Below the pieces are notes generated by a model. It searched no databases and was not told where the DNA came from. It saw only the letters and a program-made list of their open reading frames with translations. Both the position numbers and the translations under genes were made by a program. This document shows positions 3,284 through 44,158 of a stretch of 64,000 nt of DNA, in pieces (positions within the stretch are counted from its first letter, which is position 1; the number at the start of each line of letters is the position of its first letter). This stretch comes from Chloroflexota bacterium (GTDB lineage Bacteria > Chloroflexota > Anaerolineae > Anaerolineales > UBA4823), in contig JAJUJL010000023.1 in assembly GCA_029265355.1 (NCBI GenBank), forward strand, positions 1 to 64,000. Reading direction: 5' to 3'.

Positions 3284-3305
3284 GCGCAGCTCCATAAAAA
3301 TCGAC

Positions 3306-4517: not shown

Positions 4518-4571
4518 CGGCGACTTAACGTTATATACAATCATCAATCGAACTGAGACAGGAGATTATCA

Positions 4572-5888: not shown

Positions 5889-6361
5889 GGCACTTTTCTC
5901 TCCTCGACCGTCGGATGAGGCCATCCCCAGGCAGGTCAATGGGGATGGCCTGGTTGTTCACCGCCGCGCTGTTGCTCAGCGCCTGCCAACCCGCCGCAGC
6001 AGCGCATGTCCAGGTGGTGGTCTTGCACTCCCCCATCTGCGTGCACTGCCAGGAGGTGATCGAAACCGTCATCACACCGCTGCAGCAGGAGCACGGGGAA
6101 CGGCTGGAGATCCTGTTTCTCGATGTCACCGGCGAGACCGGAAGGCAGGTCTACCTCGAAGCAGCGCGGCTCGCCGGAGTTGACCCTGCCCTGCTGGGTG
6201 TGCCCGTCATTCTGCTCGAAGACGAGATTTTGGCGGGTGACGCCGTGGAAGAGGAGTTCCCGCAGTCGGTGGCGGATGCCTTCCAGCGCGGCGGCGCGGT
6301 TTGGCCCGACCTGGACAGCTTGCGCCCATTGGTCACGGGTGCATCCACGCCAGCGCCGTAG
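5885..6361 (+). CDS. Thioredoxin-like lipoprotein with CVHC motif
   Basis: This 158-residue protein has an N-terminal hydrophobic segment ending in the lipobox LLSAC at about residue 34, so it is probably anchored outside the cytoplasmic membrane. The thioredoxin-fold part follows, with a redox motif CVHC in the context LHSPICVHCQ. A GVPVILL segment carries the cis-proline expected of thioredoxins. It ends in a short Pro/Ala tail. The start overlaps the DUF455 stop (ATGA), which indicates co-translation. A role in extracytoplasmic thiol-disulfide exchange is inferred; the partner is not visible. A later ATG at about residue 11 or 19 may be the true start, since the first 18 residues are unlike a signal peptide. 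Confidence 0.72.
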   Translation: MRHFSLLDRRMRPSPGRSMGMAWLFTAALLLSACQPAAAAHVQVVVLHSPICVHCQEVIETVITPLQQEHGERLEILFLDVTGETGRQVYLEAARLAGVDPALLGVPVILLEDEILAGDAVEEEFPQSVADAFQRGGAVWPDLDSLRPLVTGASTPAP

Positions 6362-6416
6362 GGAGTCTCAGGGGTTCTTGCCAGACAGGATCACAATCTA
6401 CAAACTCGCATTGCTA

Positions 6417-6471
6417 AGTAAACCGCAGAAAGTGTTTAGAGTAAATCGGCCATCGCGACGGCGGTTTACTC
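6417..6471. other. Intergenic dyads with alternative pairings (6362-6646)
   Basis: The 285-bp gap before the methyltransferase gene has no credible gene. AGTAAACCGC (6417-6426) pairs perfectly with GCGGTTTACT (6461-6470). The same right arm can instead pair with GAGTAAATCG (6439-6448) using one wobble. AAGTGTTT (6430-6437) also matches AAACACTT (6507-6514). These could be remnants of an inverted-repeat element or a structured 3' UTR. A TATAAT at 6612-6617, close to the next gene, is a possible -10 without a recognisable -35. Confidence 0.4.
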
Positions 6472-6571
6472 CAGGGTTTCGCCGGTGCTCGTTCACATTA
6501 TTGTAAAAACACTTACGGCAAAACACCTAGCCACCGCCCATTTTGAACGGCGTGGGTCGCCCCTACCTATG

Positions 6572-6602
6572 CGTGTAATCCGTGCCCAAATCCGTGTTGT
6601 GC
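6572..6602 (+). repeat. Interspersed 31-bp repeat, copy 1
   Basis: The segment starting CGTGTAATCCGTGCCC and ending CCGTGTTGTGC matches 26920-26950 at 27 of 31 positions. Both copies are intergenic and flanked by GC-rich palindromic sequence. Confidence 0.6.
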
Positions 6603-6646
6603 GGGGTAAGGTATAATCATGGTTAATCCCCATTCCGGAGGCTGCC

Positions 6647-7549
6647 ATGTCTACCCTCAGCGATCTTCTCTCCCAACCCGCTCCTGTCCTGCTCGACGGC
6701 GCCATGGGCACCATGCTCATGTCCGCCGGCCTCAACCCGGGCGACTCGCCCGAGCTGTGGAACGTGGAGCGCCCGGACGAAGTGCGCCAGGTGCACCGCG
6801 CCTACATCCAGGCCGGCTCGCAGCTCATCCTGACCAATTCCTTCGGCGGCAGCCGCGTGCGCCTGGCGCGCAATGGATTGGACGCCCGCGCCTTTGAGCT
6901 GAACCGCGCCGCCGCTGAGCTGGCCCGCCAGGAGGCCGACCAGGCCGCTCACCCGGTGCTGGTGGCTGGCTCGATCGGACCCACCGGCGAGCTGCTGCAG
7001 CCCTACGGCCCCATGAGCGTGGAGCAAGCCGAAGAAGCCTTCGCCGAGCAGGCTGCCGGGCTGATTGCCGGCGGCGTCGATCTGCTGTGGATCGAGACCA
7101 TGTCCGACCTGAACGAAGTGCAGGCGGCCATTGCCGGCGCGCGCCGCGCCATGGCGAATACCGGGCGTGAGATTCCCATCGCCGCCACGATGACCTTCGA
7201 CGCCCACGGCCGCACCATGATGGGCGTGCGCCCGGAGCAAGCGGTGCAGGCGCTGTCAAGCCTCGACCTGCTGGCAGTTGGCGCCAACTGCGGCACCGGC
7301 CCGGCGGAGGTCGCCCAGGTGATCGATAGAATGAGAGCCGCCGCGCCGCAAGCGGTGCTGGTCGCCAAGGCCAATGCTGGCTTGCCGCGCCAGCAGGGCG
7401 GGCAGGTGGTCTACGACGGCACGCCCGAGGTGATGGCCCGCTACGCCGTGGATATGCGCTCGCGCGGCGCCAAGCTGATCGGCGCCTGCTGCGGCTCGAC
7501 GCCCGAGCATATTCGGGCGATGGCGGAGGCGCTCCACAGCGACGCCTAG
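6647..7549 (+). CDS. Homocysteine S-methyltransferase family protein
   Basis: This 300-residue protein has the barrel of the zinc-dependent homocysteine methyltransferases (BHMT/MmuM/MetH N-terminal type). Markers in order are LDGAMGTMLM, ILTNSFGGSR, AGSIGPTGELL, IETMSDLNE, GANCGTGP and GACCGSTPEHI. The three Cys in GANC and GACC are the expected zinc ligands that activate the homocysteine thiol. The methyl donor (betaine, S-methylmethionine, methylcobalamin) cannot be decided; there is no cobalamin-binding domain in this protein. GGAGG precedes the ATG. It makes methionine from homocysteine in the cytoplasm. It is separated from the preceding gene by 285 bp and is likely transcribed on its own. 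Confidence 0.87.
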   Translation: MSTLSDLLSQPAPVLLDGAMGTMLMSAGLNPGDSPELWNVERPDEVRQVHRAYIQAGSQLILTNSFGGSRVRLARNGLDARAFELNRAAAELARQEADQAAHPVLVAGSIGPTGELLQPYGPMSVEQAEEAFAEQAAGLIAGGVDLLWIETMSDLNEVQAAIAGARRAMANTGREIPIAATMTFDAHGRTMMGVRPEQAVQALSSLDLLAVGANCGTGPAEVAQVIDRMRAAAPQAVLVAKANAGLPRQQGGQVVYDGTPEVMARYAVDMRSRGAKLIGACCGSTPEHIRAMAEALHSDA

Positions 7550-7681
7550 ACGCGGAGAGAGAAAGCCACTTTCCCGCCGAAAATCTTAGAAAATTCCAAC
7601 ATTTCCCTGGTATGATCTGCGAGCGTCTGCATGCGCCATAATTCCGGCGCGCTCTGCGGACAAGCATTCCAGGAGGTGTTT

Positions 7682-9583
7682 ATGGACTCTCAACCCATCC
7701 CCTTCAAAGCTGAGACCCGTCAACTGCTCAACATCCTGATTCACTCGCTCTACACCGAACGGGAAATCTTCCTGCGCGAGCTGATCTCCAACGCCGCCGA
7801 CGCCCTCACCCGCCTGGACTTCGAGATGCTCACCAACCGCGAGGTGCACTCGCCCGACGCGCCGCTGGAGATCCGCATCACCGCCGACTCGAGCACCAAC
7901 ACCCTGACCATCTCCGACAGCGGCATCGGTATGACCGCCGAAGAGCTCACCGAGAACCTGGGCACCATCGCTCACTCCGGGGCGCGCGCCTTCGTCGAAG
8001 CCGCCCAGGCGGCGGGCGCCAATGGCTCACCAGCACAACTCTCGAATGTCATCGGCCAGTTCGGCGTTGGTTTCTACTCCGCCTTCATGGTGGCTGAGTC
8101 GATCCGCGTCGTCTCGCGTTCTTACCGCAAAGACGCCCCAGCCGCCGAGTGGTGGTGCGACGGCTCCGATTCGTTCATCGTCCGCCCGGCAGAGCGGGAA
8201 GGGCGCGGTACGGATGTCATCATCCAGCTCAAAGAAGACGCCAAAGAGTTCGCCCAGGAATACCGCCTGCGCGAGATCATCAAAAAGCACTCCGATTTCA
8301 TCCCCTATCCCATCTTCCTGGGCAGCGCCAAGGAACAGACCAACCGCCAATCGGCGCTGTGGCGTCAGCAGCCGCGCCAGGTGGAGGCCAAGGATTACGA
8401 CGAATTCTACCGCCAGCTCACCCTGGATTGGGAACCGCCCCTGGCGCACATGCACCTCAACGTGGATGCGCCGGTGCAGATGTACGCCCTGCTCTACCTG
8501 CCCGGCAAGGCCGAGCGCAGCCCCTTCTCCCTGCGCAAAGAGGACGGTCTCAAGCTCTACGCCCGCAAGGTGCTCATCCAGGAATACAGCCGCGACCTGC
8601 TGCCCGAGTACTTAGGCTTCGTGCAGGGCGTGGTCGATTCGGAAGACCTGCCGCTGAACGTCTCACGCGAGAGCGTGCAGGCCAACCGGGTGATGGCCAA
8701 TCTCAAAAAACTGGTCACCAACAAGGTGATCGACACGCTCAAAGACATGGCCGCCAACGACGCCCCGAAGTACGCCGCCTTCTGGCAGTCCTTCGGGCGC
8801 TTCATCCGCCAGGGGGCGGCGGTGGAGCAGCAGGAGTGGGAACGCCTGCTGCCGCTGCTGCGCTTCCGCAGCCTGGAAAAGCCCGGCGAATGGGTCTCGC
8901 TGGATGATTACATCGCCCGCATGAAACCCGGCCAGGAGCGCATCTACTACCTGCTGGGCGACGATGAGCGTTCGCTGCGCTACTCGCCGCACCTCGACCT
9001 GGTGCGCCCTCATGGCTTCGAAGTTCTGCTGATGACCGACCCGCTCGACCCGTTCGTGCTCTCGCGCTTGCGAGAATACCAGGGCAAGCAACTTTCCAAC
9101 CTGGCCTCCCCCGACCTGCAAATCGAGCCTCCCGCTGGCGAGAAGCGCGCCGATGCGGATGAAAGCAAAGATCGAGCAGGCGATGAGCCGGAAAAAACCC
9201 CCGAAGCCGGGGAAAAGAGCGAGCTGGCCCAGCGCATCCAGGCGCAGTTGGGCGAGCGCGTCTCCGAGGTGCGCGCCAACAATCGCCTGTCATCCGCCCC
9301 GGCGCGCCTGGTGGACGCCCAGGGCGCGCTCAACCCCGAGCTGCAGCGCGTCTACCGCATGCTGGACCGCGAATTCCAGGCGCCCAAGAAGGTGCTCGAG
9401 ATCAACCCGGCGCACCCCATCCTGCAGCGCATTGCCGCCCTGCCTCAGGACGACGCCCTGGCGCAGGCAGCCATCGAGCAAATCTACGAAAACGCCCTGT
9501 TGATCGAAGGCCTGCACCCCGACCCGGCGGGCATGATCCCGCGCCTGCAACAATTGATCGAGGCCGCGTTAGGCAAATCGTAG
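7682..9583 (+). CDS. htpG: Chaperone protein HtpG (Hsp90)
   Basis: This 633-residue cytoplasmic Hsp90 has all the ATP-lid and pocket motifs near its start: ELISNAADAL, DSGIGM, LGTIAHSG and IGQFGVGFYSAF. The middle domain has the conserved segment NVSRESVQ and the catalytic-loop region. A charged, Glu/Lys-rich stretch at about residues 490-520 separates the middle and C-terminal dimerisation domains; this is longer than in many bacterial HtpG proteins. The ATG at 7682 follows an excellent AGGAGG (7671-7676). A -10-like TATGAT lies at 7611-7616. The TAG stop is the first three bases of a REP-like palindrome that follows the gene. Confidence 0.96.
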   Translation: MDSQPIPFKAETRQLLNILIHSLYTEREIFLRELISNAADALTRLDFEMLTNREVHSPDAPLEIRITADSSTNTLTISDSGIGMTAEELTENLGTIAHSGARAFVEAAQAAGANGSPAQLSNVIGQFGVGFYSAFMVAESIRVVSRSYRKDAPAAEWWCDGSDSFIVRPAEREGRGTDVIIQLKEDAKEFAQEYRLREIIKKHSDFIPYPIFLGSAKEQTNRQSALWRQQPRQVEAKDYDEFYRQLTLDWEPPLAHMHLNVDAPVQMYALLYLPGKAERSPFSLRKEDGLKLYARKVLIQEYSRDLLPEYLGFVQGVVDSEDLPLNVSRESVQANRVMANLKKLVTNKVIDTLKDMAANDAPKYAAFWQSFGRFIRQGAAVEQQEWERLLPLLRFRSLEKPGEWVSLDDYIARMKPGQERIYYLLGDDERSLRYSPHLDLVRPHGFEVLLMTDPLDPFVLSRLREYQGKQLSNLASPDLQIEPPAGEKRADADESKDRAGDEPEKTPEAGEKSELAQRIQAQLGERVSEVRANNRLSSAPARLVDAQGALNPELQRVYRMLDREFQAPKKVLEINPAHPILQRIAALPQDDALAQAAIEQIYENALLIEGLHPDPAGMIPRLQQLIEAALGKS

Positions 9584-31211: not shown

Positions 31212-33203
31212 GTGGACGACCCGCAATTCGAACGCCAGCTCGCTGCCTGGAACACTTTCATCCACGAACATGAGATTGCCGCGCATGTCCCGCCGGCCAT
31301 CGCGGCTTCCTGGATTCGCTGCTGGTACCGGCTGAGCCCCTACGAGCATATCCAACCCAAATCGCTGGCGACTAACCACCTGCTGATGGCCCAGGTCGCC
31401 AGCTTTGATATGATGTCCTTCGCCCGCCCGGTGATGGAGGACATTTACCAGTTCATCGAGCGAACCCAGAGCGCCCTGGTGTTGGTCAATGCGGCTTGCT
31501 TTGTGCTGGATATGTTGGGCGATGAAGAAATGCTCACCCAGCTCAGCGATGCGCTGCACATCACCGCCGGCGCCCAGCTTGCCGAACCCGTCACCGGCAC
31601 CAACGCCTTCGCCCTGGCGCTCAGCGAGCGCATTCCCATGCAGGTGACCGGCGCCGAGTTCTTCCTGCAGCAGTATCACCACCTGGCGCAGGCTGCTGCG
31701 CCAATCTTCGATCTCAGCGGCAAACCTCTGGGCGCGCTGGGCGTGATCACCCTGCGCCAGCGCTACCACCCACATGCCCTGGGCATGGTCCTGGCAGGGG
31801 CGCGCGCCATCGAAGGCCAGATCCAGGCCGACCGGCTGCTGGCAGAGCAAAACTCCCAGCTCGCGCAGCTCAACGCCATCCTCTCCGCCAACTCCGAAGG
31901 CGTCATCGTCTGGAACTCCGATTTCGTGCTGATGCACATCAACGAACCCGCCCAAAAATTCCTCGGCCTGCCGGCTGGGGCGCTCTCCGGGCGGCACATC
32001 CGCGAGAAAATCGCCTACCCGGCCTTCATCCAGGAAGCCGTCGAGCAGCGCCGCCCGCTCACCGATGTGGAAGCCACCCTCCAGGTGGAGGGCAAACCGC
32101 TGCGCTGCATCCTTTCGCTGCGCTTTGTCGAGAAAACCAACGGCGAACTGGAATGGATCATCGCCATCCTGCGCCAGGAGCACGACGTGCGCCGCCTGGT
32201 GCAGAACCAGTTCGGCACCCAGGCCGTGCTGACCCTGGACGACATCCCCGGCGAATCGCCCGCCATCCAGAGCGTGCGCCGCTTCGTGCGCACCGCCGCG
32301 CCGGTCAAGGCCAGCATCTTCATCCGCGGCGAAAGCGGCACCGGCAAGAACGCCCTGGCCAGCGCCATCCACAACGCCAGCAACCGCCGGGAGGGTCCCT
32401 TCCTGGTGTTCGCCTGCTCCACCGTGCCCAATGAGCTGCTCAACCGCGAGCTGTTGGGCTATGACGAAAGCCTGAGCAATCACCGCCCCGGCGGGCGACC
32501 GAGCAAGTTCGAGCTGGCGCACGGCGGCACGCTCTATTTCCAGGACATCGACGCCCTGCCCCTCGAAGCCCAGGCCATCCTCTTGAACATGCTCGAAATG
32601 GGCATCATCCAGCGCCTGGGCAGCAGCCTGCCGATCCAGGTGGATGTGCGCGTCATCGCATCTTCCTCGGCGCGCATCGAAAAGCTGGTTGCCCAGGGCA
32701 GCTTCCGCGCCGACCTGTACTACCGCCTGAGCACCTTCGAGATCGCCCTGCCCCCGCTGCGCGAGCGGCTCTCCGACCTGCCCATCCTGGTGGAGCGCAT
32801 CCTGGCGCGGCTCTCCCGGCAGCTCAACCGCTCCTTTACCCTGGCGCCGGAAGTGATGGTGCTGTTCAACAAATACCCCTGGCCTGGCAACATCCGTGAG
32901 CTGGAAAAAGTGCTGGCGCGGGCTGCTATCCAGACCGGCGCCTCCGAGCTGATCGGCTCCATGCACCTGCCCGAGTACATCTTGAACCCGGTGAACTCGC
33001 TGGAGCAGAGCATCGAAATTGGCGCCGCCCAGCCGCTGGATGAGATCGAACGCGAAGCCATCCTGAACGTCGCCCGCCTGTGCAAGGGCAACACCAGCGA
33101 AATGGCGCGCATCCTGGGCATCAGCCGCACCACCATCTGGCGCAAGTTGAAGGAATTCAATATCGCCGCCGATGATTTTCGCGCCCGGGCTGGACGCAAT
33201 TGA
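31212..33203 (+). CDS. DhaR/AcoR-like transcriptional activator (GAF-PAS-AAA+-Fis), lacking GAFTGA
   Basis: This 663-residue regulator has an N-terminal GAF-like region (to about 200), a PAS domain (about 215-330), an AAA+ domain with Walker A GESGTGKNALA and Walker B-like HGGTLYFQDID, and a C-terminal Fis-type helix-turn-helix (GNTSEMARILGISRTTIWRKL). The GAFTGA loop required to contact sigma-54 is missing; the position reads LLGYDESLSNHRPGG. It resembles DhaR, which activates dihydroxyacetone-kinase genes through sigma-70 and binds DhaK and DhaL. Here it lies directly upstream of glpF-dhaK-dhaL, supporting that role. The start is GTG after AGGAG (31199-31203). A TATAAT is at 31183-31188. 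Confidence 0.86.
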   Translation: MDDPQFERQLAAWNTFIHEHEIAAHVPPAIAASWIRCWYRLSPYEHIQPKSLATNHLLMAQVASFDMMSFARPVMEDIYQFIERTQSALVLVNAACFVLDMLGDEEMLTQLSDALHITAGAQLAEPVTGTNAFALALSERIPMQVTGAEFFLQQYHHLAQAAAPIFDLSGKPLGALGVITLRQRYHPHALGMVLAGARAIEGQIQADRLLAEQNSQLAQLNAILSANSEGVIVWNSDFVLMHINEPAQKFLGLPAGALSGRHIREKIAYPAFIQEAVEQRRPLTDVEATLQVEGKPLRCILSLRFVEKTNGELEWIIAILRQEHDVRRLVQNQFGTQAVLTLDDIPGESPAIQSVRRFVRTAAPVKASIFIRGESGTGKNALASAIHNASNRREGPFLVFACSTVPNELLNRELLGYDESLSNHRPGGRPSKFELAHGGTLYFQDIDALPLEAQAILLNMLEMGIIQRLGSSLPIQVDVRVIASSSARIEKLVAQGSFRADLYYRLSTFEIALPPLRERLSDLPILVERILARLSRQLNRSFTLAPEVMVLFNKYPWPGNIRELEKVLARAAIQTGASELIGSMHLPEYILNPVNSLEQSIEIGAAQPLDEIEREAILNVARLCKGNTSEMARILGISRTTIWRKLKEFNIAADDFRARAGRN

Positions 33204-33654: not shown

Positions 33655-34446
33655 ATGAAATCAAAAGGCTTAACTTCAGAACTGATCGGAGAGGTGTTCG
33701 GCACCTTCATCCTGATCCTGTTGGGCGACGGCGTGGTAGCGAACGTGGGCCTGGCTCCCCGCCTGGCTGCCCCAGCCTACAACTGGAACACCATCACCAT
33801 CGGCTGGGCCTTTGCGGTCGTGGTCGCTGTGTATGTGTCCGCCGGCGTCTCGGGCGCGCACCTGAACCCGGCCGTGACGATCGCCCTGGCAGCCAAGCGC
33901 GGCTTCCCCTGGGCTAAGGTCCTGCCGTACTCCATCGCTCAGATCGTCGGCGCATTCCTGGGCGCGCTGGGCGTTTACCTGGTGTATCGCGAAGGCCTGG
34001 TGGCGGCGGGCACGCCGAACGTCTGGTGCACCGGCCCTGGCTCGGTCTTCGGCAACGCCTTCTGGGGCGGAGCGGGCGGCACGGCTGCCGGCGCGTATTC
34101 GTTGACCAACGCTGTGATCGCAGAAATTTTTGGCACCGCCGTCCTGCTGTGGGGTGTGCTGGCCTCTGGCGACAGCCGCAACACCGGCCTGATGCACAAC
34201 ACCGGTCCGCTGCTGGTGGGCTTCACCGTCCTGGCCGTTGGTCTCTCCCTGGGCGGCCCCTCGGGCTATGCCATCAACCCCGCCCGTGACTTTGGCCCCC
34301 GCCTGCTCGGCCTGCTGGTCGGCACGCAGGGCTTGTTCGACGGGCTGTACTGGCTGATCGCCCCGATCATCGCCCCCATCATCGGCGGCCTGCTGGGCAT
34401 CTTCACCTACGACTGGTTCGTCTCCGCTCAAATCGCGGATAAGTAA
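33655..34446 (+). CDS. glpF: Glycerol uptake facilitator
   Basis: This 263-residue inner-membrane channel of the MIP family has six membrane spans and two half-helix NPA motifs, GAHLNPAVTIAL and YAINPARDFGPR. The Asp after the second NPA (NPARD) marks glycerol facilitators rather than water-only aquaporins. It allows passive entry of glycerol and dihydroxyacetone. It is first in the operon with dhaK, dhaL and glpK. The ATG follows GAGGAG. The last half has a typical glycine-rich GTAVLLWGVLASGD segment. Confidence 0.95.
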   Translation: MKSKGLTSELIGEVFGTFILILLGDGVVANVGLAPRLAAPAYNWNTITIGWAFAVVVAVYVSAGVSGAHLNPAVTIALAAKRGFPWAKVLPYSIAQIVGAFLGALGVYLVYREGLVAAGTPNVWCTGPGSVFGNAFWGGAGGTAAGAYSLTNAVIAEIFGTAVLLWGVLASGDSRNTGLMHNTGPLLVGFTVLAVGLSLGGPSGYAINPARDFGPRLLGLLVGTQGLFDGLYWLIAPIIAPIIGGLLGIFTYDWFVSAQIADK

Positions 34447-34522: not shown

Positions 34523-35524
34523 ATGAAGAAATTGATCAACTCACCTGAGAATGTGGTGCGCGAAGAGCTCGAAGGTGTGGCCCTGGCTCACCCCGACCTC
34601 GTGCGAGTGCATTTCGATCCAAACTACGTCGTCCGGGCGGACGCACCGGTGATGGGCAAAGTGGGCGTGATCTCCGGCGGCGGCTCGGGACACGAGCCCA
34701 TGCACGGCGGCTTCGTTGGCTTTGGCATGCTCGATGCAGCCTGCCCCGGAGCAGTCTTCACCTCGCCCACTCCTGACCAGATGCTGGAAGCCACCAAAGC
34801 CGTCAACGGCGGCAAGGGTGTGCTGCACATCGTCAAGAACTACACCGGCGACATCATGAACTTCGAGATGGCAGCCGAGCTGGCGATGGCGGAGGGCATC
34901 CAGGTCGAATCGGTGATCACCGATGACGACGTCGCTGTCCAGGACAGCCTCTACACTGCTGGACGCCGCGGCGTGGGCAGCACGGTGCTGGCCGAGAAAG
35001 TGTGCGGTGCAGCCGCCCAGGAAGGACGCTCGCTCAAGGAAGTCGCCGATGTGTGCCGCAAGGTCAAGGCCTGGGGGCGCAGCATGGGCATGGCGCTCAC
35101 GTCCTGCACCGTTCCTCACGTGGGCAAGCCCACTTTCGATCTCCCCGAAGACGAAATGGAAATCGGCATCGGCATCCACGGCGAGCCTGGTCGCACGCGC
35201 ATGAAGATCAAGAGCGCCGACGAGATCACCGAGATGCTGATGGAGCCGATCATCAAGGACCTGCCCTACAAAGCCGGCGATGAGGTGCTCCTGTTCGTCA
35301 ACAGCATGGGCGGCACACCTCCCATCGAGCTCTACATCGTCTACCGCAAAGCGCACGAGATCGCCACCAAGCACGGACTCAAGGTCGTGCGCAACCTGAT
35401 TGGCCCGTACATCACCAGCCTGGAAATGGCCGGCACTTCCATCACCCTGCTCAAGATGGACGCTGACCTGCTCAAGCTGTGGGATGCGCCGGTCAAGACC
35501 CCCGGCCTGCGCTGGGGCATGTAA
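34523..35524 (+). CDS. dhaK: Dihydroxyacetone kinase subunit DhaK
   Basis: This 333-residue substrate-binding subunit holds dihydroxyacetone covalently as a hemiaminal on a His. The expected residues are His57 in [11 protein letters not shown] and His219 in GIGIHGEPG (His218 in E. coli). With DhaL and a phosphoryl donor protein it makes dihydroxyacetone phosphate from PEP. It is 76 bp after glpF. A GGGAG precedes the ATG. A stable hairpin follows the stop before dhaL. The presence of the DhaM-like fusion at the end of the same locus indicates the PEP-dependent rather than ATP-dependent kinase type. Confidence 0.95.
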
Positions 35525-35564: not shown

Positions 35565-35593
35565 CCAAATCTATCACCTGGAAAGTGCATGGC

Positions 35594-36229
35594 ATGTCTA
35601 TCAGTCGAGACGACACACTGAACTGGATCAAATCATGCGCCGCAGTCCTGGCTGAGAATCGCGATTACCTCACCCAGCTCGATGCAGCTATCGGCGACGC
35701 CGACCACGGCGCCAACATGGACCGCGGTTTCAAAGCGGTCATGGCTAAGATGCCGGAAATGGCTGACAAGGACATCGGCACGATCTTCAAAACGGTAGGC
35801 ATGACCTTGCTCTCGACCGTGGGCGGCGCAGGCGGTCCGCTGTACGGCACCTTCTTCTTGCAAGCCGGCATGAAGTCTGCGGGGAAGATGGAGCTGAGCC
35901 TGGAAGACTGGACCATCGCCCTGGAAGCTGCCCTGGCAGGCGTGGTCATGCGCGGCAAAGCCGAGCTGGGCGACAAGACCATGGTGGACGCCTTGATGCC
36001 CGCCCTGAATGCCCTCAAGCAATCCCTGCAGGATCACCAACCCCTGGGCGATGCGCTGCGCGCCTCGGCCCAGGCCGCGCGCGAGGGCATGATTGCCACC
36101 GTTCCGCTGGTGGCCCGCAAAGGGCGCGCCAGTTACCTCGGCGAGCGCAGCGCCGGGCACCAGGATCCAGGAGCGACCTCTTCCTACCTGATCCTCAACG
36201 CTGCCGCCGAGACGTGGAAAAACACCTGA
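35594..36229 (+). CDS. dhaL: Dihydroxyacetone kinase subunit DhaL
   Basis: This 211-residue helical-barrel subunit keeps ADP permanently bound and passes phosphate from DhaM to dihydroxyacetone on DhaK. The nucleotide-magnesium motif DAAIGDADHGANM near residue 30 and the glycine loop GGAGGPLYGTFF are present. So is the C-terminal KGRASYLGERSAGHQDPGA, typical of the family. The start at 35594 is an ATG three codons into a longer GTG frame. In E. coli the ADP-bound form also activates DhaR; a DhaR-like gene lies upstream here. Confidence 0.94.
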   Translation: MSISRDDTLNWIKSCAAVLAENRDYLTQLDAAIGDADHGANMDRGFKAVMAKMPEMADKDIGTIFKTVGMTLLSTVGGAGGPLYGTFFLQAGMKSAGKMELSLEDWTIALEAALAGVVMRGKAELGDKTMVDALMPALNALKQSLQDHQPLGDALRASAQAAREGMIATVPLVARKGRASYLGERSAGHQDPGATSSYLILNAAAETWKNT

Positions 36230-36270: not shown

Positions 36271-37767
36271 ATGGCTAAGTATGCAGCAGCAATAGACCAG
36301 GGAACCACCAGCACCCGCTTTATGATCTTCGATCACAGCGGCAAGGTTGTTTCCGTCGATCAAAAAGAGCATGAGCAGATTTACCCGAAGCCCGGCTGGG
36401 TCGAGCACGACCCCATGGAAATCTGGTCCCGCACCCAGGAAGTGATCCGCGGCGCGCTGTACAAAGCCAACATCAGCCCGGCAGACATCGCCGCCGTGGG
36501 CGTCACCAACCAACGCGAGACCACCGTGGTCTGGGAGAAAGCCACCGGCAAGCCGGTCTACAATGCCATCGTCTGGCAGGACACCCGCACCGACAAGATC
36601 TGCAACGAGCTGGCCAAGGACGGCGGGCAGGATCGCTTCCGCCCGCAGGTGGGCTTGCCCCTGGCGACCTACTTCTCCGGCCCCAAGATCAAGTGGATCC
36701 TGGACAACGTGCCCGGCGTGCGCGAAAAGGCTGAGAAGGGCGAAGTCCTCTTCGGCAACATCGACACCTGGGTGATCTGGAACCTGACCGGCGGCCCCAA
36801 CGGCGGCGTGCATGTCACCGACGTCTCCAACGCCTCCCGCACCATGCTGATGAACCTCGAGACGCTGGACTGGGATCCTGCCATCCTCAAGATCATGGGC
36901 GTGCCGCGCGCCATGCTGCCGGCTGTGCGCCCCTCCAGCGCCGTGTATGGCACCGCCGTCGGCGACCTGGCGGGCGTGCCCGTCGCCGGTGACCTGGGCG
37001 ACCAGCAAGCCGCCCTCTTCGGGCAGACCTGCTTCTCCGCCGGCGAGGCCAAGAACACCTACGGCACCGGCTGCTTCATGCTGCTCAACACCGGCACCAA
37101 GGCGGTGCAGTCCAAGAATGGCCTGCTCACCACCCTGGGCTACAAGATCGGCAACGATGACGCCGTGTACTGCCTGGAAGGCTCGATCGCCATCACCGGC
37201 GCCTTGGTGCAGTGGTTGCGCGATAACCTCGGCCTGATCCAGAAGTCGGCCGATGTCGAAGCCCTGGCAAAGACCGTGGAAGACAACGGCGGCATTTACT
37301 TCGTGCCCGCCTTCTCCGGCCTGTTCGCCCCCTACTGGAAGAGCGACGCCCGCGGCGCCATCGTCGGCATGACCCGCTACGTCAACAAGGGCCACATCGC
37401 TCGCGCCGCCCTGGAAGCCACCGCTTTCCAGACCCGCGAAGTGCTGGATGCCATGAACAAGGACTCCGGCGTCGATCTGAAAGCCCTCAAAGTGGACGGC
37501 GGCATGGTTTACAACGACACCCTGATGCAGTTCCAGGCCGATATCCTGGGCGTGCCCGTCATTCGCCCGACCGTGGCCGAGACCACCTCGCTGGGCGCAG
37601 CCTATGCCGCCGGCCTGGCGGTGGGCTTCTGGTCCAAGGTGGAAGACCTGCGCGCCAACTGGGGCAAGGATCACGAGTGGACGCCCAAGATGGACAACGC
37701 CACCCGCGAATCGCTCTACAAGGGCTGGAAGAAAGCCGTCACTCGCACCTTTGACTGGGTGGAGTAA
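36271..37767 (+). CDS. glpK: Glycerol kinase
   Basis: This 498-residue FGGY-family kinase phosphorylates glycerol to sn-glycerol 3-phosphate with ATP in the cytoplasm. Family signatures are [58 protein letters not shown] and GLFAPYW, and [10 protein letters not shown] near the end. The length matches the family. TAGGAGG lies 9 bp before the ATG. It is the fourth gene of the operon after glpF, dhaK and dhaL, so the locus encodes both glycerol and dihydroxyacetone kinases. A strong hairpin follows the gene at 37884-37921. Confidence 0.97.
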
Positions 37768-37976: not shown

Positions 37977-38237
37977 ATGGCAAAATCATCCAAAGAAGGC
38001 AAAAAAAGCAGCCAGAAGCAGGAAGCCCAACCCATCCCCGGCGCCTGGATCAAGATGCGCACCGGCGTGATCGTAATTTCCATCGTCAGCATCGCCATGG
38101 CTGTGCTCACCGCCTGGCAGGCGGTGCCTCAGAAGGGCTGGGTGGAAGGCATTTTGTGGGGCGTGTTCTTCGGCGGCTCGATCTGGGTCATCTTCCTGGT
38201 CTTCGTGCTGTACGGGCGGCTCTTCCGCCGCTCTTGA
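37977..38237 (+). CDS. Small two-helix membrane protein
   Basis: This 86-residue protein has a basic, Lys/Ser-rich N-terminus of about 28 residues. Two predicted membrane helices follow (TGVIVISIVSIAMAVLTAW and GILWGVFFGGSIWVIFLVFVLYG), with a C-terminal FRRS. I do not recognise the family. It lies between glpK and the glpA-sdhBCD-like genes, so it could be an accessory of the membrane complex, but that is a guess from position. A GGAAGG site is 8 bp upstream of the ATG. Confidence 0.65.
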   Translation: MAKSSKEGKKSSQKQEAQPIPGAWIKMRTGVIVISIVSIAMAVLTAWQAVPQKGWVEGILWGVFFGGSIWVIFLVFVLYGRLFRRS

Positions 38238-38273: not shown

Positions 38274-38879
38274 ATGGACGCTGCACAGCTCGGATTGGAC
38301 AGCTGGGAAGCCGCCTGGGCTCCCTACGATGAGCGCACTTACGCGCAAGTCTGCGCGGCGGTGTCCGCCCAGGATACCCTGCTGGAGATCGGCGCCGGCG
38401 ACCTGCGACTGGCGCGCCGACTGGCAGGCATCGCCAGGCTCGTGATCGCCATCGAGCTGCAGGCCGCCCCGCTCCAGCGCGCCCGGCTTGCCGGCTCGCT
38501 GCCCGGCAACCTGCTTGCCATCCAGGCCGACGCCCGCAGCTTCCCTATCCCGCCCGGTGTGACTGCGGCGGTGCTGCTGATGCGGCACTGCACCCATTTT
38601 CAACTCTACGCCCAAAATCTGAAAAATGCCGGTGTCAGCCGCCTGATCACCAACGCCCGCTGGGGAATGGGCGTGGAGGTGATCGCTCTGCAGGCCCCTC
38701 GCCTGGCATACCAGCAGCTTCTCATCGGCTGGTATGCCTGTTGGTGCGGGGCGGCCGGGTTCAAACCTGGACCGGTCGAACTGCTCACCCCGGCGCTGGA
38801 TACCATCCAGCACGAGGTCAGGCACTGCCCCCGCTGTCAGCCAGGCATGGCGACGCCCCCTGGCGCCATGCTTGCCTGA
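38274..38879 (+). CDS. Putative SAM-dependent methyltransferase
   Basis: This 201-residue protein has a class-I methyltransferase motif I, LLEIGAGDLRLARRLAG (around residue 38), an acidic end of strand 2 (VIAIELQAAPLQRARL), and a strand-4-like ADARSFPIP...AAVLLMRHCTHF. The C-terminal part is short and ends with a Cys pair HCPRCQ, perhaps metal binding. The order of motifs resembles rRNA adenine dimethylases but the catalytic NPPY-type motif is missing, so the target is unknown. It starts 36 bp after the small membrane protein and precedes glpA. Confidence 0.6.
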   Translation: MDAAQLGLDSWEAAWAPYDERTYAQVCAAVSAQDTLLEIGAGDLRLARRLAGIARLVIAIELQAAPLQRARLAGSLPGNLLAIQADARSFPIPPGVTAAVLLMRHCTHFQLYAQNLKNAGVSRLITNARWGMGVEVIALQAPRLAYQQLLIGWYACWCGAAGFKPGPVELLTPALDTIQHEVRHCPRCQPGMATPPGAMLA

Positions 38880-38910: not shown

Positions 38911-40077
38911 ATGGATAAACCACACGCAATTATCATCGGCGCCGGCTTCACCGGCGTCGCCACCGCGCACGACCTGGCGCTGCGCGGCTTCGATGTCACC
39001 GTCGTCGAGCGCGGCCCGATTGCTAACGGCACCTCCGGGCGCACCCACGGCTTGCTGCACTCCGGTGGTCGCTACGCCGTCAAAGACCAGGAATCGGCCA
39101 TCGAGTGCATCGATGAAAACATGATCCTGCGCAAAATCGTCCCCCAGGTGATCGAACCCAACGGGGGGCTGTTCATCGCCCTCACCGAGAGCGATCTGGA
39201 GTACGGCGAGCAGTTCATCGAGGGCTGCGAAGCCTGCCATATCCCCATCGAAGAGCTCAAGCCGCAGCAGGCGCTCAAGCTGGAGCCCAACCTCAACCCC
39301 AGGCTGCTGGCGGCCTTCACCATACCCGATGGCACCTTCGATCCGCTGCGCCTGGCGCTGTCCTTCGCCGCCACCGCCAAATCCAACGGCGCCAGGTTCC
39401 ACCTGTACACCGAGGTGGAAGGCTTGCTGCTGGACGGCCAGGGCAACGTGGTCGGCGTCAAGACCTGGGACCGCAAGACCAACCAGCGCGGCGAGCTGCG
39501 CGCCGATATCGTGGTCAACGCCACCGGCGCCTGGGCAGGCGAGATCACCGAGATGGCCGGCGCGTCTGTGCCGGTCAAGCCCACGCCAGGCATCATGGTG
39601 GCTTACGATCAGCGCCTGTGCCAGCGCGCCATCAATCGCCTGTGCCCGCCCTCCGACGGCGATATCATCCTGCCCCAGCGGCGCATGATGGTGGTCGGCA
39701 CCACCTCCTTCGAAGTCACCGACCTGGATTACGTGCCCGTCATCGAAGAGCAGATCGAGCTGATGCTGGAGCGCGGCGCCGAGATGGTGCCCGGCATCCG
39801 CCAGGCCAAGGTGCGCGGCGTTTACATGGCCACCCGCCCGCTGATCGGCGCCGGCGTCACCGGCCGCAGCATCGCCCGCACCTTCAAATGCTACGACCAC
39901 AAAGCCTCAGACAACGTTGACGGGCTGGTCACCATCACCGGCGGCAAAGCCACCACGCTGCGCGCCATGGCCGAAGCCACCGCCAACATGGTCTGCGCCA
40001 AGCTGGGCGTGACGGCGCAGTGCAGCACCAAGGATACGCCCCTGCTCAGCTACCGCCAATTCTATGCACTGCCCTGA
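38911..40077 (+). CDS. glpA: Glycerol-3-phosphate dehydrogenase, GlpA-type FAD subunit
   Basis: This 388-residue FAD protein of the GlpA/GlpD (DAO) family begins with the Rossmann motif IIIGAGFTGVATAHDLALRGFDVTVVERG. It continues with GTSGRTHGLLHSGGRYAV, VVNATGAWAGEI, and the C-terminal RPLIGAG and TITGGKATTLRAMAE. It oxidises glycerol 3-phosphate to dihydroxyacetone phosphate. It lacks the extra C-terminal ferredoxin-like domain of E. coli GlpA (about 540 residues). No glpB or glpC follows; instead the next three genes are of succinate-dehydrogenase type. It is probably membrane-associated through them. Confidence 0.9.
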   Translation: MDKPHAIIIGAGFTGVATAHDLALRGFDVTVVERGPIANGTSGRTHGLLHSGGRYAVKDQESAIECIDENMILRKIVPQVIEPNGGLFIALTESDLEYGEQFIEGCEACHIPIEELKPQQALKLEPNLNPRLLAAFTIPDGTFDPLRLALSFAATAKSNGARFHLYTEVEGLLLDGQGNVVGVKTWDRKTNQRGELRADIVVNATGAWAGEITEMAGASVPVKPTPGIMVAYDQRLCQRAINRLCPPSDGDIILPQRRMMVVGTTSFEVTDLDYVPVIEEQIELMLERGAEMVPGIRQAKVRGVYMATRPLIGAGVTGRSIARTFKCYDHKASDNVDGLVTITGGKATTLRAMAEATANMVCAKLGVTAQCSTKDTPLLSYRQFYALP

Positions 40078-40089
40078 CAGGGAGGCGCC

Positions 40090-40818
40090 ATGATCAACGA
40101 ATGGAAAATCACCCTCAAAATTTACCGCCAAAAAGGCCAGGAGCCGCCGCACTACGACACCTTCGAGCTGGAGGTCAATCCCGATGAATATGTGTTGGAC
40201 GCCATCGAGCGCGTCTGGGCTTTCCGCGACCGCTCGCTGACCTTCGCCCACGCCTGCCACCACTCCACCTGCGGCGCCTGCGGCATGCGCGTCAACGACG
40301 TCGAAAAGCTCACCTGCATCACCCCCATCCGCTCGGTGGTCGCCAACGGTGGTGTGCTCAAGGTCGACCCGATGCGCAACTTCCCCGTGGTCAGCGACCT
40401 GGTGGTTGACCTGGGCTCGCTCTACCAGCGCATGGACCAGGTCGGGCACCGTTCCGTGCTGCCCCTGGGTGAGGAACCCGCCCCGCACCCCGCCGCCGCC
40501 CCCGCCCCCGAAGATTTGCAGGCGCTGCGCCTGGCGGACTGCATCGAATGCGGCCTGTGCATCAGCGCCTGCCCGGTGGCCACCACCACACCCGCCTACC
40601 TGGGGCCGGCCGTCCTGGCCGGCGCTCAACAGCACGGCTTGAACGGCGATCTCAAGCTGCTCGAGCTGGTGGACAGCGACTCGGGCGTGTGGCGCTGCCA
40701 CAGCGCTTTTGAATGCACCGCCGTGTGCCCGTCCAATGTGGACCCCGCCCGGCGCATCATGGACCTGCGCCGCCAGGTGATCGGCGCCCGCATTGCCCGG
40801 TTCTTCGGCCGGGGTTGA
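40090..40818 (+). CDS. Succinate dehydrogenase/fumarate reductase-type iron-sulfur subunit
   Basis: This 242-residue protein has three cluster motifs in the SdhB/FrdB order. The N-terminal ferredoxin domain has [2Fe-2S] ligands in ACHHSTCGACGMRVN...LTC. The C-terminal domain has a [4Fe-4S] motif CIECGLCISACP, then CHSAFECTAVCPSNVDP, which fits the [3Fe-4S] site plus the last ligand. It carries electrons from a flavin subunit to a membrane anchor. It starts 12 bp after glpA, and no SdhA/FrdA gene is present, so its flavin partner here is probably GlpA. It is not GlpC-like: no CCG domains are present. GGGAGG precedes the ATG. Confidence 0.9.
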   Translation: MINEWKITLKIYRQKGQEPPHYDTFELEVNPDEYVLDAIERVWAFRDRSLTFAHACHHSTCGACGMRVNDVEKLTCITPIRSVVANGGVLKVDPMRNFPVVSDLVVDLGSLYQRMDQVGHRSVLPLGEEPAPHPAAAPAPEDLQALRLADCIECGLCISACPVATTTPAYLGPAVLAGAQQHGLNGDLKLLELVDSDSGVWRCHSAFECTAVCPSNVDPARRIMDLRRQVIGARIARFFGRG

Positions 40819-40838
40819 GCGAGGAGGATAAAACCACC

Positions 40839-41219
40839 ATGAGCAACAAACCTTCACCCTCGAACTGGCCCAAGTGGTTCGACCCCCGCCGCCGCGAGGC
40901 GGGAAGCTGGGCCTTCATCCTGAACCGGCTCTCGGCCCTGGGGTTGACCTTCTATCTCTTCCTGCACCTGATCGTGCTCGGCACCCTGGCGCAGGGCGAG
41001 GCCGCCTACGACAATTTCCTGGAAACCATTCACAACCCGCTCTTCATCCTGGGCGAGCTGGTGGTGATTGTCGGCGCGGTGTACCACGGGCTCAACGGCC
41101 TCCGCGTCGGGCTGACCTCCTTCGGCATTGGCGTCAGCGTCCAGAAGCAGCTCTTTTACATCACCCTGGCGATCACCGCGGTTGTCGCCGTGTTCTTCGC
41201 TGTCCGCATGTTCAGTTAG
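40839..41219 (+). CDS. SdhC-type cytochrome b membrane anchor subunit
   Basis: This 126-residue protein has three predicted membrane helices. The first, NRLSALGLTFYLFLHLIVLG, matches the SdhC pattern (QR-x-SG...FLHL). The second ends in AVYHGLNGLRVGLTSFG, whose His is the likely heme b ligand. It should anchor the Fe-S subunit and help form the quinone site. It lies 20 bp after that gene, with GAGGAGG upstream of the ATG. The N-terminal 25 residues are polar and rich in Pro, Arg and Trp. Confidence 0.85.
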   Translation: MSNKPSPSNWPKWFDPRRREAGSWAFILNRLSALGLTFYLFLHLIVLGTLAQGEAAYDNFLETIHNPLFILGELVVIVGAVYHGLNGLRVGLTSFGIGVSVQKQLFYITLAITAVVAVFFAVRMFS

Positions 41220-41229
41220 AGGTGCCATC

Positions 41230-41607
41230 ATGGTTGAAACGAACGCTGCACAATCTTCCACCGAGAGCGGCTGGTTGTGGCTGATCAAAATTCTCAGCGG
41301 GCTGCTCATCCTGGTGATCATCACCATCCACTTGATCGTCAACCACTTCGTCGGCTCAGCGGCTGGCTTGCTCACCTGGGCTGAGGTAGTGGCGTATTAC
41401 CAAAATCCGATCATCCCGCTGATGGAAGCGGCATTCCTGGTCTTCGCCGTTTCGCATGCCATGATCGGCCTGCGCAGCATCATCATCGACCTGCACCCCT
41501 CTCGCGCTGTGCTCAACGCCGTCACCTGGTTGTTGACCGGTGTGGGCGCAGCAGCCATCGCCTACGGCATCTGGTTGCTGTGGACCATCGTCGTGCAGGG
41601 GAGGTAA
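41230..41607 (+). CDS. SdhD-type membrane anchor subunit
   Basis: This 125-residue protein has three predicted membrane helices: ISGLLILVIITIHLIVNHFV, then FLVFAVSHAMIGLRSIIIDL, then WLLTGVGAAAIAYGIWLLW. SHAMIGLRSIIID matches the H-x3-G-x5-D pattern of SdhD, with the second likely heme or quinone-site His. It completes the B-C-D set after glpA. Start and stop fit tightly: 10 bp after SdhC and 19 bp before the DhaM-like gene. Confidence 0.83.
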   Translation: MVETNAAQSSTESGWLWLIKILSGLLILVIITIHLIVNHFVGSAAGLLTWAEVVAYYQNPIIPLMEAAFLVFAVSHAMIGLRSIIIDLHPSRAVLNAVTWLLTGVGAAAIAYGIWLLWTIVVQGR

Positions 41608-41626: not shown

Positions 41627-44158
41627 ATGGTTGGGATCGTTATCGTCTCGCACAGCCGCCCATTGGCCAACGCCCTGGCGGACCTGGTGCGCCAGGTCGC
41701 CTCGCCGGAGGTGCCCATCGCGGTTGCCGCCGGCGTGGGAGAGGAGCGGGCTGAGTTTGGCACGGACGCGGTCGAGATCATGCAGGCCATCCTCTCGGTG
41801 GATTCGCCGGATGGCGTGCTGGTGCTGATGGACCTGGGCAGCGCCATTCTCAGCGCTGAGATGGCGTTGGAGCTGTTGCCGCCAGAAACCGCGGCGCGCA
41901 TCCGCTTCTGCGCGGCGCCGCTGGTGGAAGGCGCCATCGCCGCCGGCGTGCAGGCCGGGCTGGGCATGGACCTGCAAACGGTGTGCAGCGAGGCCTCCGA
42001 CGCTCTGCTGCCCAAGGCCGAGCAGCTCGGCGCGGCTCAGTCGCAGCCAACCGCCGCCGCGCCGCCGCCCGAGCCGCCCGCCCAGGATAGCCTGCAAACC
42101 ACGCTCACCCTGCACACCCTCCACGGACTGCACGCCCGCCCGGCGGCGCTCTTTGTGCAAACCGCCGCCCGCTTTGACGCCGATATTCGCGTCAAAAACC
42201 TGACCACCGGCAAAGGCCCGGTCTCTGCCCGCAGCCTGAATGCGCTGGCAACCCTGGCAGCGCTCCACGGTCACCAGGTGCAGGTCAGCGCCTCCGGTCC
42301 GCAGGCCGCCCAGGCCCTGGCCGCCCTGGAGGCGCTGGTTGCCGACAACTTCGGCGAACACACCCTGGCCCCCGCCCCGCCTGCTCCACCCGCCGCCCCG
42401 GCCCCCGCCCCGCTCCCCGCAGCCCTGCCCGGCGCGCTGATGGCGACCCCCGTCGCCGAGGGCGTCGCCCTGGGGCCGCTCTTCCGCTTCCAGCCGCCCC
42501 TGCCGCCCGTCTCCGCAGAGCCGGCGCAGCACCCCGAGCAAGAGCTGGCGCGCCTCAACCAGGCCATCGAGAGCACCCGCCAGGCCATCCGCCAGCGCAA
42601 GCAGACCATCGCCCTGGCCGCTGGCGCGCAAGAAGCCGCCATCTTCGACGCCCACCTGCTCATCCTGGAAGACCCAGAGCTGCTGGAGCAGGTGCAGGCG
42701 CTCATCCAGCAGGAGCATTTCAACGCCGCTTACGCCTGGAAGCAGGGCATCGACCGGGTGGCGGCCGCCTACCAGGCCCTGCCCGACCCCTACTTGCAGC
42801 AGCGCGCCGCCGACGTGCAGGATGTCGGCTCGCAGGTGCTCTTTGCCCTGGCGGGCAAAGCCAGCGGCCTGGAAATCCGCTTCCCAGAGCCATCCATCTT
42901 GTTCGCCGCTGACCTGACCCCCACCGAGACCGCCCAGCTCGACATGAGCCAGGTGCTGGGGGTGATCACCGTGGGCGGCGGACCCACCTCCCATTCCGCC
43001 ATACTGGCGCGCGCCCTGGGCATCCCCGCCGTCTCCGGCGCCAGCCTCAGCCTGGAGCAACACAGGGATGGCACGCTGGTCGGCCTGGACGGTGTGCGCG
43101 GCGCCATCTGGATCGAGCCGCCCCCTGCCGTGCAAAGCGACCTGCTGCAGCGCCGGACGGCCTGGTTGGAAGAGCGCCAGCGCCTGCTGCGCACCTCCCG
43201 CGCCCTGGCAGCCACCCGAGACGGACAGCGCATCGAGGTGGTCGCCAATGTCGGCAGCGTGCCAGACGCTCGCCTTGGCTTGCAAAACGGCGCCGAGGGC
43301 ATCGGCCTGCTGCGCACCGAGTTCCTGTACCTGACGCGCGCTTCCGCCCCCAGTGAGGACGAGCAGGTGCAGTCCCTGCGCCTGATCGCCCAGGAGATGG
43401 CTGCCGATGGCGACGCCAGCCGCCCGATCATCGTGCGCACGCTGGACATCGGCGGCGACAAAGAATTGCCCTACCTGCCCATGCTGCCAGAGGCCAACCC
43501 CTTCCTGGGCGTGCGCGCCCTCAGGCTCTCGCTGCGTTCCCCCGACATCTTCCGCGCCCAACTGCGCGCCGTGCTGCGCGCTGGCGATGGGTACAACTTC
43601 CGCATCATGTTCCCCATGGTCGCCAACCTGGATGAGCTCCTTGAAGCCCGCCGCCGCCTGGAGCAGGCGCATCAGGAGCTGCTCGCCGAGAACGTCCCCC
43701 ACGCCTGGCCGATCCAGACCGGCATCATGGTCGAAATTCCCTCCGCGGCGCTCACCAGCAACATTCTCGCCCCCCACGTGGATTTCTTCAGCATCGGCAC
43801 CAACGACCTGACCCAGTACACGCTGGCTGCCGAGCGCGGCAACCCGCTGCTGGCCGCCTACGCCGACGGCCTGCACCCCGCCGTGCTGCAGCTCATCCGC
43901 CAGGTGACCCGCGTCGCCCAGGCGCACGGCAAATGGGTGGGCGTGTGCGGCGAGCTGGCCGGCGACGCCCTGGCGGCGCCCATCCTGGTCGGCCTGGGCG
44001 TTTCCGAGCTGAGCATGAACCCCGCCGCCATCCCCAGGGTCAAGGCCGTGCTGCGCAACACCAACCTGGCTGAAGCCCAGGCCCTCGCCGATCGAGCGCT
44101 CTCCACGAAGAGCACCGCCGAAGCGCGCGCCCTGGCACAGGCTTTCGCCGCCTCGTAG
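41627..44158 (+). CDS. dhaM: DhaM-HPr-enzyme I fusion, PEP-dependent phosphoryl donor for dihydroxyacetone kinase
   Basis: This 843-residue protein has three phosphotransfer modules. An EIIA-Man-like DhaM domain (about 1-130) has active His9 in VIVSHS. An HPr domain (about 155-245) has His169 in GLHARPA. Enzyme I (about 268-843) has phospho-His456 in GGGPTSHSAILA. Pro/Ala linkers join them. Unlike E. coli DhaM, which keeps only the N-terminal part of enzyme I, the full PEP-binding barrel is present (RTEFLYL, GTNDLTQYTLAAERGN, VCGELAGD, LSMNPAAIPRVK). The protein can in principle autophosphorylate from PEP and feed DhaL. I start at the ATG at 41627 after GGAGGGGA; the longer frame lies in the upstream gene. 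Confidence 0.93.
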   Translation: MVGIVIVSHSRPLANALADLVRQVASPEVPIAVAAGVGEERAEFGTDAVEIMQAILSVDSPDGVLVLMDLGSAILSAEMALELLPPETAARIRFCAAPLVEGAIAAGVQAGLGMDLQTVCSEASDALLPKAEQLGAAQSQPTAAAPPPEPPAQDSLQTTLTLHTLHGLHARPAALFVQTAARFDADIRVKNLTTGKGPVSARSLNALATLAALHGHQVQVSASGPQAAQALAALEALVADNFGEHTLAPAPPAPPAAPAPAPLPAALPGALMATPVAEGVALGPLFRFQPPLPPVSAEPAQHPEQELARLNQAIESTRQAIRQRKQTIALAAGAQEAAIFDAHLLILEDPELLEQVQALIQQEHFNAAYAWKQGIDRVAAAYQALPDPYLQQRAADVQDVGSQVLFALAGKASGLEIRFPEPSILFAADLTPTETAQLDMSQVLGVITVGGGPTSHSAILARALGIPAVSGASLSLEQHRDGTLVGLDGVRGAIWIEPPPAVQSDLLQRRTAWLEERQRLLRTSRALAATRDGQRIEVVANVGSVPDARLGLQNGAEGIGLLRTEFLYLTRASAPSEDEQVQSLRLIAQEMAADGDASRPIIVRTLDIGGDKELPYLPMLPEANPFLGVRALRLSLRSPDIFRAQLRAVLRAGDGYNFRIMFPMVANLDELLEARRRLEQAHQELLAENVPHAWPIQTGIMVEIPSAALTSNILAPHVDFFSIGTNDLTQYTLAAERGNPLLAAYADGLHPAVLQLIRQVTRVAQAHGKWVGVCGELAGDALAAPILVGLGVSELSMNPAAIPRVKAVLRNTNLAEAQALADRALSTKSTAEARALAQAFAAS

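Follow-up and report, generated by a model that had tools for sequence, protein, structure and literature searches.

A putative glycerol-3-phosphate:menaquinone oxidoreductase built on the plan of complex II in Chloroflexota

Introduction

Where do the electrons of a glycerol-3-phosphate dehydrogenase flavoprotein (GlpA) go if its gene is followed not by glpB and glpC, but by genes of the succinate dehydrogenase type? Complex II, i.e., succinate:quinone reductase or quinol:fumarate reductase, is usually seen as bound to the flavoproteins SdhA or FrdA. The question is raised by a stretch of 64,000 nucleotides (the window) of contig JAJUJL010000023.1 from a Chloroflexota genome (GCA_029265355.1, here G000; 98.45% complete), in which a short glpA gene, a gene for an SdhB-type iron-sulfur (Fe-S) protein, and two genes for SdhC- and SdhD-like membrane anchors follow one another within a glycerol operon (Table 1). 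Very probably, these four genes encode one membrane-bound glycerol-3-phosphate:menaquinone oxidoreductase with the plan of complex II, in which GlpA would replace SdhA. This reading rests on gene order and its conservation, a separate ancestry of the Fe-S protein, gene fusions, conserved cofactor ligands, and predicted packing, from which we infer the physical complex, its substrate, the electron path, the quinone, and the heme occupancy.

Gene organization and the short GlpA

The genes are closely spaced, with gaps of 12 bp (glpA to Fe-S gene), 20 bp (Fe-S to SdhC-like gene), 10 bp (between the anchor genes), and 19 bp to the following dhaM gene, and a purine-rich stretch resembling a ribosome-binding site lies upstream of each of these starts. 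Profile matches and gaps thus bore out a first-pass annotation made from the sequence alone, which had described a short GlpA followed by an SdhB-type protein and two three-helix Sdh_cyt subunits 10-20 bp apart. It had also stated that SdhA/FrdA, GlpB, and GlpC are missing, and this held as well: the window contig gave no SdhA-family match and no Fer2_3 match besides the window Fe-S gene, GlpC remained below cut-off genome-wide (best match 58.7 bits, cut-off 279.9), and no GlpB adjoined the window GlpA, GlpB having been sought only beside GlpA and not genome-wide.

The window GlpA matched positions 2-380 of the 530 positions of TIGR03377 with 439 bits, below the cut-off of 552.8, and showed no Fer2_BFD domain, which is located at residues 432-484 in GlpA of E. 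coli. The downstream proteins carry neither GlpB nor CCG domains, which led us to reject a canonical GlpABC whose B and C subunits have diverged. Residues R54, Y55, R309, and K346, invariant among 15 homologues and aligned to the sequence of the B. halodurans glycerol-3-phosphate dehydrogenase crystal structure, are likely the phosphate and substrate residues.

The complex might be real and yet act on another small hydroxy or amino compound, as is typical of the broad D-amino acid oxidase (DAAO) superfamily. Indeed, glycine and sarcosine oxidases are among the fold neighbours, besides 2r45 (GlpD; VIA-align Z of 41, the aligned rows comprising essentially the GlpA domain, 7-380). We nevertheless consider another substrate very unlikely, since GlpA was the top family well ahead of the others (439 bits vs. 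96 for GlpD-type proteins and 87 for ThiO), the gene resides in a glycerol operon together with glpK, and the presumed phosphate and substrate residues do not vary among the homologues.

Fe-S subunit, membrane anchors, and proposed electron path

Alignment with FrdB and SdhB of E. coli located the ligands of three clusters in the Fe-S protein, namely C56, C61, C64, and C76 for 2Fe-2S, C151, C154, C157, and C213 for 4Fe-4S, and C161, C203, and C209 for 3Fe-4S, where the allotment of individual cysteines follows the E. coli precedent. In a paired alignment with 17 homologues, these cysteines were invariant or at least 90% conserved.

Both anchors displayed three hydrophobic segments. His43 and His83 of the SdhC-like subunit were invariant in 40/40 sequences, and so were His34, His39, and His76 of the SdhD-like subunit in 41/41. 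The two hemes of Sdh2 from M. smegmatis are ligated by C47/D65 and C87/D107 (PMC7447783), and the spacings of 40 (C43-C83) and 42 (D34-D76) residues found here are identical to those of this diheme enzyme. Since the SdhD of the genome's own succinate dehydrogenase possesses no histidine equivalent to D34, the GlpA-linked anchor is predicted, together with its Sdh2-like spacing, to be of the diheme type. MenA was detected over cut-off in G000, so that menaquinone is the likely acceptor.

In the proposed mechanism, glycerol 3-phosphate would be oxidized to dihydroxyacetone phosphate by GlpA, whose bound flavin adenine dinucleotide (FAD) would take up the electrons. These would then cross the SdhB-type subunit by way of its 2Fe-2S, 4Fe-4S, and 3Fe-4S clusters, in this order, and reach two b hemes between the SdhC- and SdhD-like subunits, the proximal one ligated by C-His83 and D-His76 and the distal one by C-His43 and D-His34, and from these hemes menaquinone would be reduced. 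The reaction would be favourable, given midpoint potentials of about -190 mV for dihydroxyacetone phosphate/glycerol 3-phosphate and about -74 mV for menaquinone.

Conservation of the gene cluster

A GlpA search of 301 Chloroflexota genomes, 80 of which gave a match at 1e-40, revealed a clear gap between 17 full-length matches in 16 genomes with at least 49% identity and canonical GlpAs with at most 44%, nearly all of the latter residing in frames of at least 518 amino acids. The order glpA-FeS-sdhC-sdhD, proposed as a check by the first-pass annotation, is kept among these relatives: in 14 of the 16 genomes with a short GlpA the Fe-S gene is adjacent, and the anchors come next except in G144, where the contig ends inside the Fe-S gene, and at the second copy of G257. 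Scanning of named genomes yielded 80 loci, including 40 of the anchored type with median gaps of 16, 10, and 13 bp; an SdhC gene was present in 38 of them, SdhC and SdhD together in 37, and GlpK within the fetched stretch in 34. In the same set, GlpB and GlpC came after canonical GlpAs, apart from a few exceptions, if the contig extended far enough. Chance adjacency was excluded because of this conservation across tens of genomes and of the gene fusions described below.

Both systems were also seen near each other, with GlpB/GlpC (L097, 1-3629) or a canonical GlpA-GlpB (L116, 1692-7906) upstream of a short GlpA-FeS pair. At a further locus (L128, 1028-2194), a 388-amino-acid GlpA of the canonical clade is encoded without GlpB, GlpC, or an Fe-S gene downstream before the methyltransferase gene.

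Two-gene form without anchors

A two-gene arrangement occurs in Spirochaetota, Desulfobacterota, and one metagenome-assembled genome (MAG) labelled Myxococcota: here the Fe-S gene comes after the short glpA, in many cases with its start codon overlapping the glpA stop codon, and no anchor genes come next. GlpA was found in 36 of 198 sampled Spirochaetota genomes, and the 25 loci fetched were split strictly: short GlpA stood beside the Fe-S gene in 5/5 cases, long GlpA beside GlpB in 20/20. In four Spirochaete genomes (G304, G305, G307, and G308), the GlpA-linked gene is the sole SdhB-type gene, and neither an Sdh_cyt gene nor an SdhA-family match at cut-off was found (in G307 none whatever), absences that are weak singly and concordant with one another. 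A genome paper on Desulfobacterium autotrophicum from 2009 mentioned 'GlpAB' next to HdrF (PMC2702500), a possible case of the two-gene form.

Some observations weigh against the proposed menaquinone oxidoreductase or narrow its role. As anchors are missing in some relatives, quinone reduction is not the sole possible outcome of the module. In the Thermoflexales genomes G262 and G037, the Fe-S gene is located on another contig than glpA, and no GlpA-type anchors were found there. Moreover, G000 harbors a second, GlpD-like glycerol-3-phosphate dehydrogenase on contig C46 beside a GlpK-like FGGY kinase, so the GlpA complex need not be the only enzyme for this substrate.

The anchor-less pairs, including those from genomes without any Sdh_cyt gene, also give some weight to the idea that GlpA and the Fe-S protein form a functional enzyme that delivers its electrons mainly to a soluble carrier, with the SdhC- and SdhD-like proteins serving merely for docking at the membrane. 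For Chloroflexota this appears improbable to the same high degree as a different substrate, as the diheme spacing of heme-ligand histidines that are invariant (C 40/40, D 41/41) is hardly explained by a passive anchor. The chances seem evenly balanced that GlpA and the SdhB-type protein constitute an old, mobile bacterial redox module, which would be combined with a diheme quinone-reducing anchor or would work free of a membrane subunit with a non-quinone acceptor. On this reading, the anchored form would be that of Chloroflexota and some MAGs labelled Actinomycetota, and the soluble form that of Spirochaetota and Desulfobacterota. If so, there would be a complex II with swapped flavoprotein and, in addition, a soluble version of it. 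The two-gene form poses a testable question as to its electron acceptor.

Separate succinate dehydrogenase and ancestry of the Fe-S subunit

G000 possesses a complete sdhC-sdhD-sdhA-sdhB cluster on contig C50, entirely on the minus strand, so that another sdhBCD set with its own SdhA exists in this genome and the GlpA-linked subunits are not spare Sdh parts. The SdhB encoded on C50 is typical, scoring 319 bits against its M. smegmatis counterpart (6LUM), in comparison to about 105 bits at best for the window Fe-S protein against any Protein Data Bank (PDB) chain. A few kb from sdhCDAB, C50 additionally encodes a second SdhA/FrdA-like flavoprotein. An SdhA-family match was present in each of 17 Chloroflexota genomes, exceeding the cut-off in 15, and none of the 17 was without an SdhB-type gene. 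A second SdhB-type gene was present in 16, the exception being G088 with canonical GlpABC, and in 14 of these 16 it adjoins the short glpA.

The 77 Fe-S proteins of an unrooted maximum-likelihood tree, a kind of analysis which the first-pass annotation had suggested, are divided by a branch with 100/100 support and a length of 1.34 into SdhA-linked proteins, including SdhB and FrdB of E. coli, and GlpA-linked ones. Two unlinked Thermoflexales proteins fall on the GlpA-linked side, and the anchor-less group forms one clade (100/99). The GlpA tree likewise contains an anchor-less clade (100/96) as well as a 100/100 branch isolating the canonical GlpABC rows together with the shortened, GlpB-less GlpA of L128. 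Pairwise distances of GlpA and Fe-S proteins from the same loci were correlated (n=58, r = 0.82; 0/5000 permutations as high), also inside subgroups (0.79 and 0.89). Both have evolved as a pair, with part of the correlation also owing to shared species history.

Natural fusions were detected in two MAGs. In one labelled Actinomycetes, GlpA and the Fe-S protein form a single frame of 695 amino acids, and in the other the Fe-S protein and SdhC form one of 378 amino acids; each of them singly could be an assembly artefact. The frames were taken without frameshift correction. AlphaFold2 prediction of the GlpA-FeS fusion resulted in a predicted local distance difference test score (pLDDT) of 86.9 and a predicted template modelling score (pTM) of 0.87 despite a disordered linker of 55 residues (398-452); by our own estimate, a pTM of about 0.55, the length share of the larger domain, would be expected if the domain orientation were not fixed. 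A computational read-through of the in-frame stop of the window GlpA, with four spacer residues before the Fe-S protein, reached a pTM of 0.83 (17 paired rows); it is a device only and makes no claim about the organism. Thus, in this modelling of GlpA with the Fe-S protein, which had likewise been proposed beforehand, the two are confidently predicted to pack together in the fusion.

These data also bear on the possibility that the Fe-S, SdhC-, and SdhD-like proteins are a second succinate dehydrogenase/fumarate reductase borrowing SdhA, with GlpA as a solitary enzyme and mere neighbour. The three subunits are true SdhB, SdhC, and SdhD homologues and an SdhA is available on C50, but the latter is flanked by its own B, C, and D genes, both kinds are completely separated in the Fe-S tree, GlpA and the Fe-S protein occur as a natural fusion, and the four Spirochaete genomes contain the GlpA-linked SdhB-type gene only, without Sdh_cyt and, in G307, without any SdhA-family match; we therefore regard it as barely credible. 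A spare or duplicated succinate dehydrogenase was ruled out by the separate sdhCDAB, the second SdhB-type genes, and the Fe-S tree. Altogether, the sdhCDAB cluster elsewhere, the kept gene order, the Fe-S tree, the fusions, and the structure predictions favour what the first-pass annotation had put forward, i.e., an Sdh-type complex with GlpA as its flavoprotein, presumably a physical and active assembly.

Comparison with known systems

In Thermofilum-related archaea, Schmerling et al. (2025) described counterparts of sdhB, C, and D downstream of glpA and depicted a GlpA-SdhBCD complex in T. pendens; for Bacteria, they stated a consistent co-occurrence of glpA with glpB and glpC (PMC11962113). 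The cluster described here shares this gene order and the proposal of a membrane glycerol-3-phosphate dehydrogenase with complex II wiring. The archaeal proposal was drawn from gene order only, whereas the present one concerns bacteria and includes fusions, a two-gene form, and diheme ligands. Hence, the enzyme is not categorically new, as the archaeal GlpA-SdhBCD has already been proposed; what is new is that it occurs in bacteria, together with the fusions, the form with two genes only, and the predicted diheme anchor, and our literature search, which covered no preprints and few subscription papers, found no report of a bacterial GlpA-SdhBCD. Its presence in bacteria contradicts the published consistent pairing of GlpA with GlpBC.

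With GlpABC of E. coli, the window system shares a homologous GlpA catalytic domain and presumably the reaction and the menaquinone acceptor, but it lacks the BFD domain and adjoining GlpB/GlpC, and electrons would be carried by the SdhB-type protein and the anchors. GlpD also has a DAAO-fold catalytic domain and presumably the same reaction, but is a homodimer that reduces quinone directly without Fe-S or heme subunits. The three-cluster SdhB-type subunit and two three-helix anchors with predicted bis-His heme ligands resemble complex II, in particular M. smegmatis Sdh2 (PDB 6LUM) with its bis-His spacing of 40/42. Unlike in these enzymes, no SdhA/FrdA is encoded in the window operon, SdhA being part of the operon on C50; the flavoprotein is GlpA with a DAAO fold, and the Fe-S subunit is placed across the 100/100 branch from that of Sdh2.

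If a GlpA-driven version exists in several bacterial phyla, the Fe-S/heme part of complex II would be an interchangeable electron outlet. This might explain glycerol 3-phosphate respiration in many Chloroflexota without GlpBC, and automatic labelling of GlpA-linked genes as succinate dehydrogenase subunits would be misleading.

Neighbouring genes

Table 1. Location of the genes and loci discussed in this study
Sequence	Feature	Position	Strand	Profile matches and remarks
Window	Sigma-54-dependent regulator	31212-33203		GAF, PAS, AAA, HTH_8
Window	Aquaglyceroporin-type MIP channel	33655-34446	+	TIGR00861 175 bits, over cut-off
Window	DhaK, dihydroxyacetone kinase subunit	34523-35524	+	TIGR02363 487 bits, over cut-off
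Window	DhaL, dihydroxyacetone kinase subunit	35585-36229	+	TIGR02365 249 bits, over cut-off
Window	GlpK, glycerol kinase (makes glycerol 3-phosphate, the substrate)	36271-37767	+	TIGR01311 762 bits, cut-off 590
Window	Small membrane protein with two helices, encoded between GlpK and GlpA	37977-38237	+	
Window	S-adenosylmethionine (SAM)-methyltransferase-like gene	38274-38879	+	Weak RrnaAD/Methyltransf matches
Window	Short GlpA, FAD-dependent glycerol-3-phosphate dehydrogenase flavoprotein, 388 aa	38911-40077	+	TIGR03377, DAO domain only
Window	SdhB-type three-cluster Fe-S protein, 242 aa	40090-40818	+	Fer2_3, Fer4_8 (4Fe-4S dicluster), TIGR00384 163 bits, cut-off 88
Window	SdhC-like membrane anchor, 126 aa, three transmembrane helices	40839-41219	+	PF01127 (Sdh_cyt) E 1.1e-13; TIGR02970 57.3 bits, cut-off 52.3
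Window	SdhD-like membrane anchor, 125 aa, three transmembrane helices	41230-41607	+	PF01127 (Sdh_cyt) E 2.3e-9
Window	DhaM-HPr-enzyme I fusion, phosphoryl donor	41627-44158	+	EIIA-man, PTS-HPr, PEP-utiliser domains; TIGR02364, TIGR01417 over cut-off
C50 (L007)	sdhC	7129-7512	-	
C50 (L007)	sdhD	6690-7118	-	
C50 (L007)	sdhA	4884-6674	-	
C50 (L007)	sdhB	4167-4868	-	
C50	Second SdhA/FrdA-like flavoprotein	3044-4615		494 bits, below cut-off
C46 (L181)	GlpD-like glycerol-3-phosphate dehydrogenase	303381-304763		
L092	GlpA-FeS fusion	5980-8064		
L110	FeS-SdhC fusion	7177-8310		
L178	Unlinked GlpA-type Fe-S gene, Thermoflexales	6793-7614		
L179	Unlinked GlpA-type Fe-S gene, Thermoflexales	~6386-7033		

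The regulator encoded upstream of the operon displays a DhaR-like architecture and is kept upstream in several relatives. The small two-helix protein is 36-56% conserved at loci of the Anaerolineales type, and the methyltransferase-like gene shows 45-56% identity across many Chloroflexota glycerol operons, also canonical GlpABC ones (L111, L121, and L123). The DhaM-HPr-enzyme I fusion comprises 843 amino acids with a complete enzyme I and shares one operon with GlpK and DhaKL, and it could provide a self-contained phosphoenolpyruvate (PEP) phosphorelay for the dihydroxyacetone kinase.

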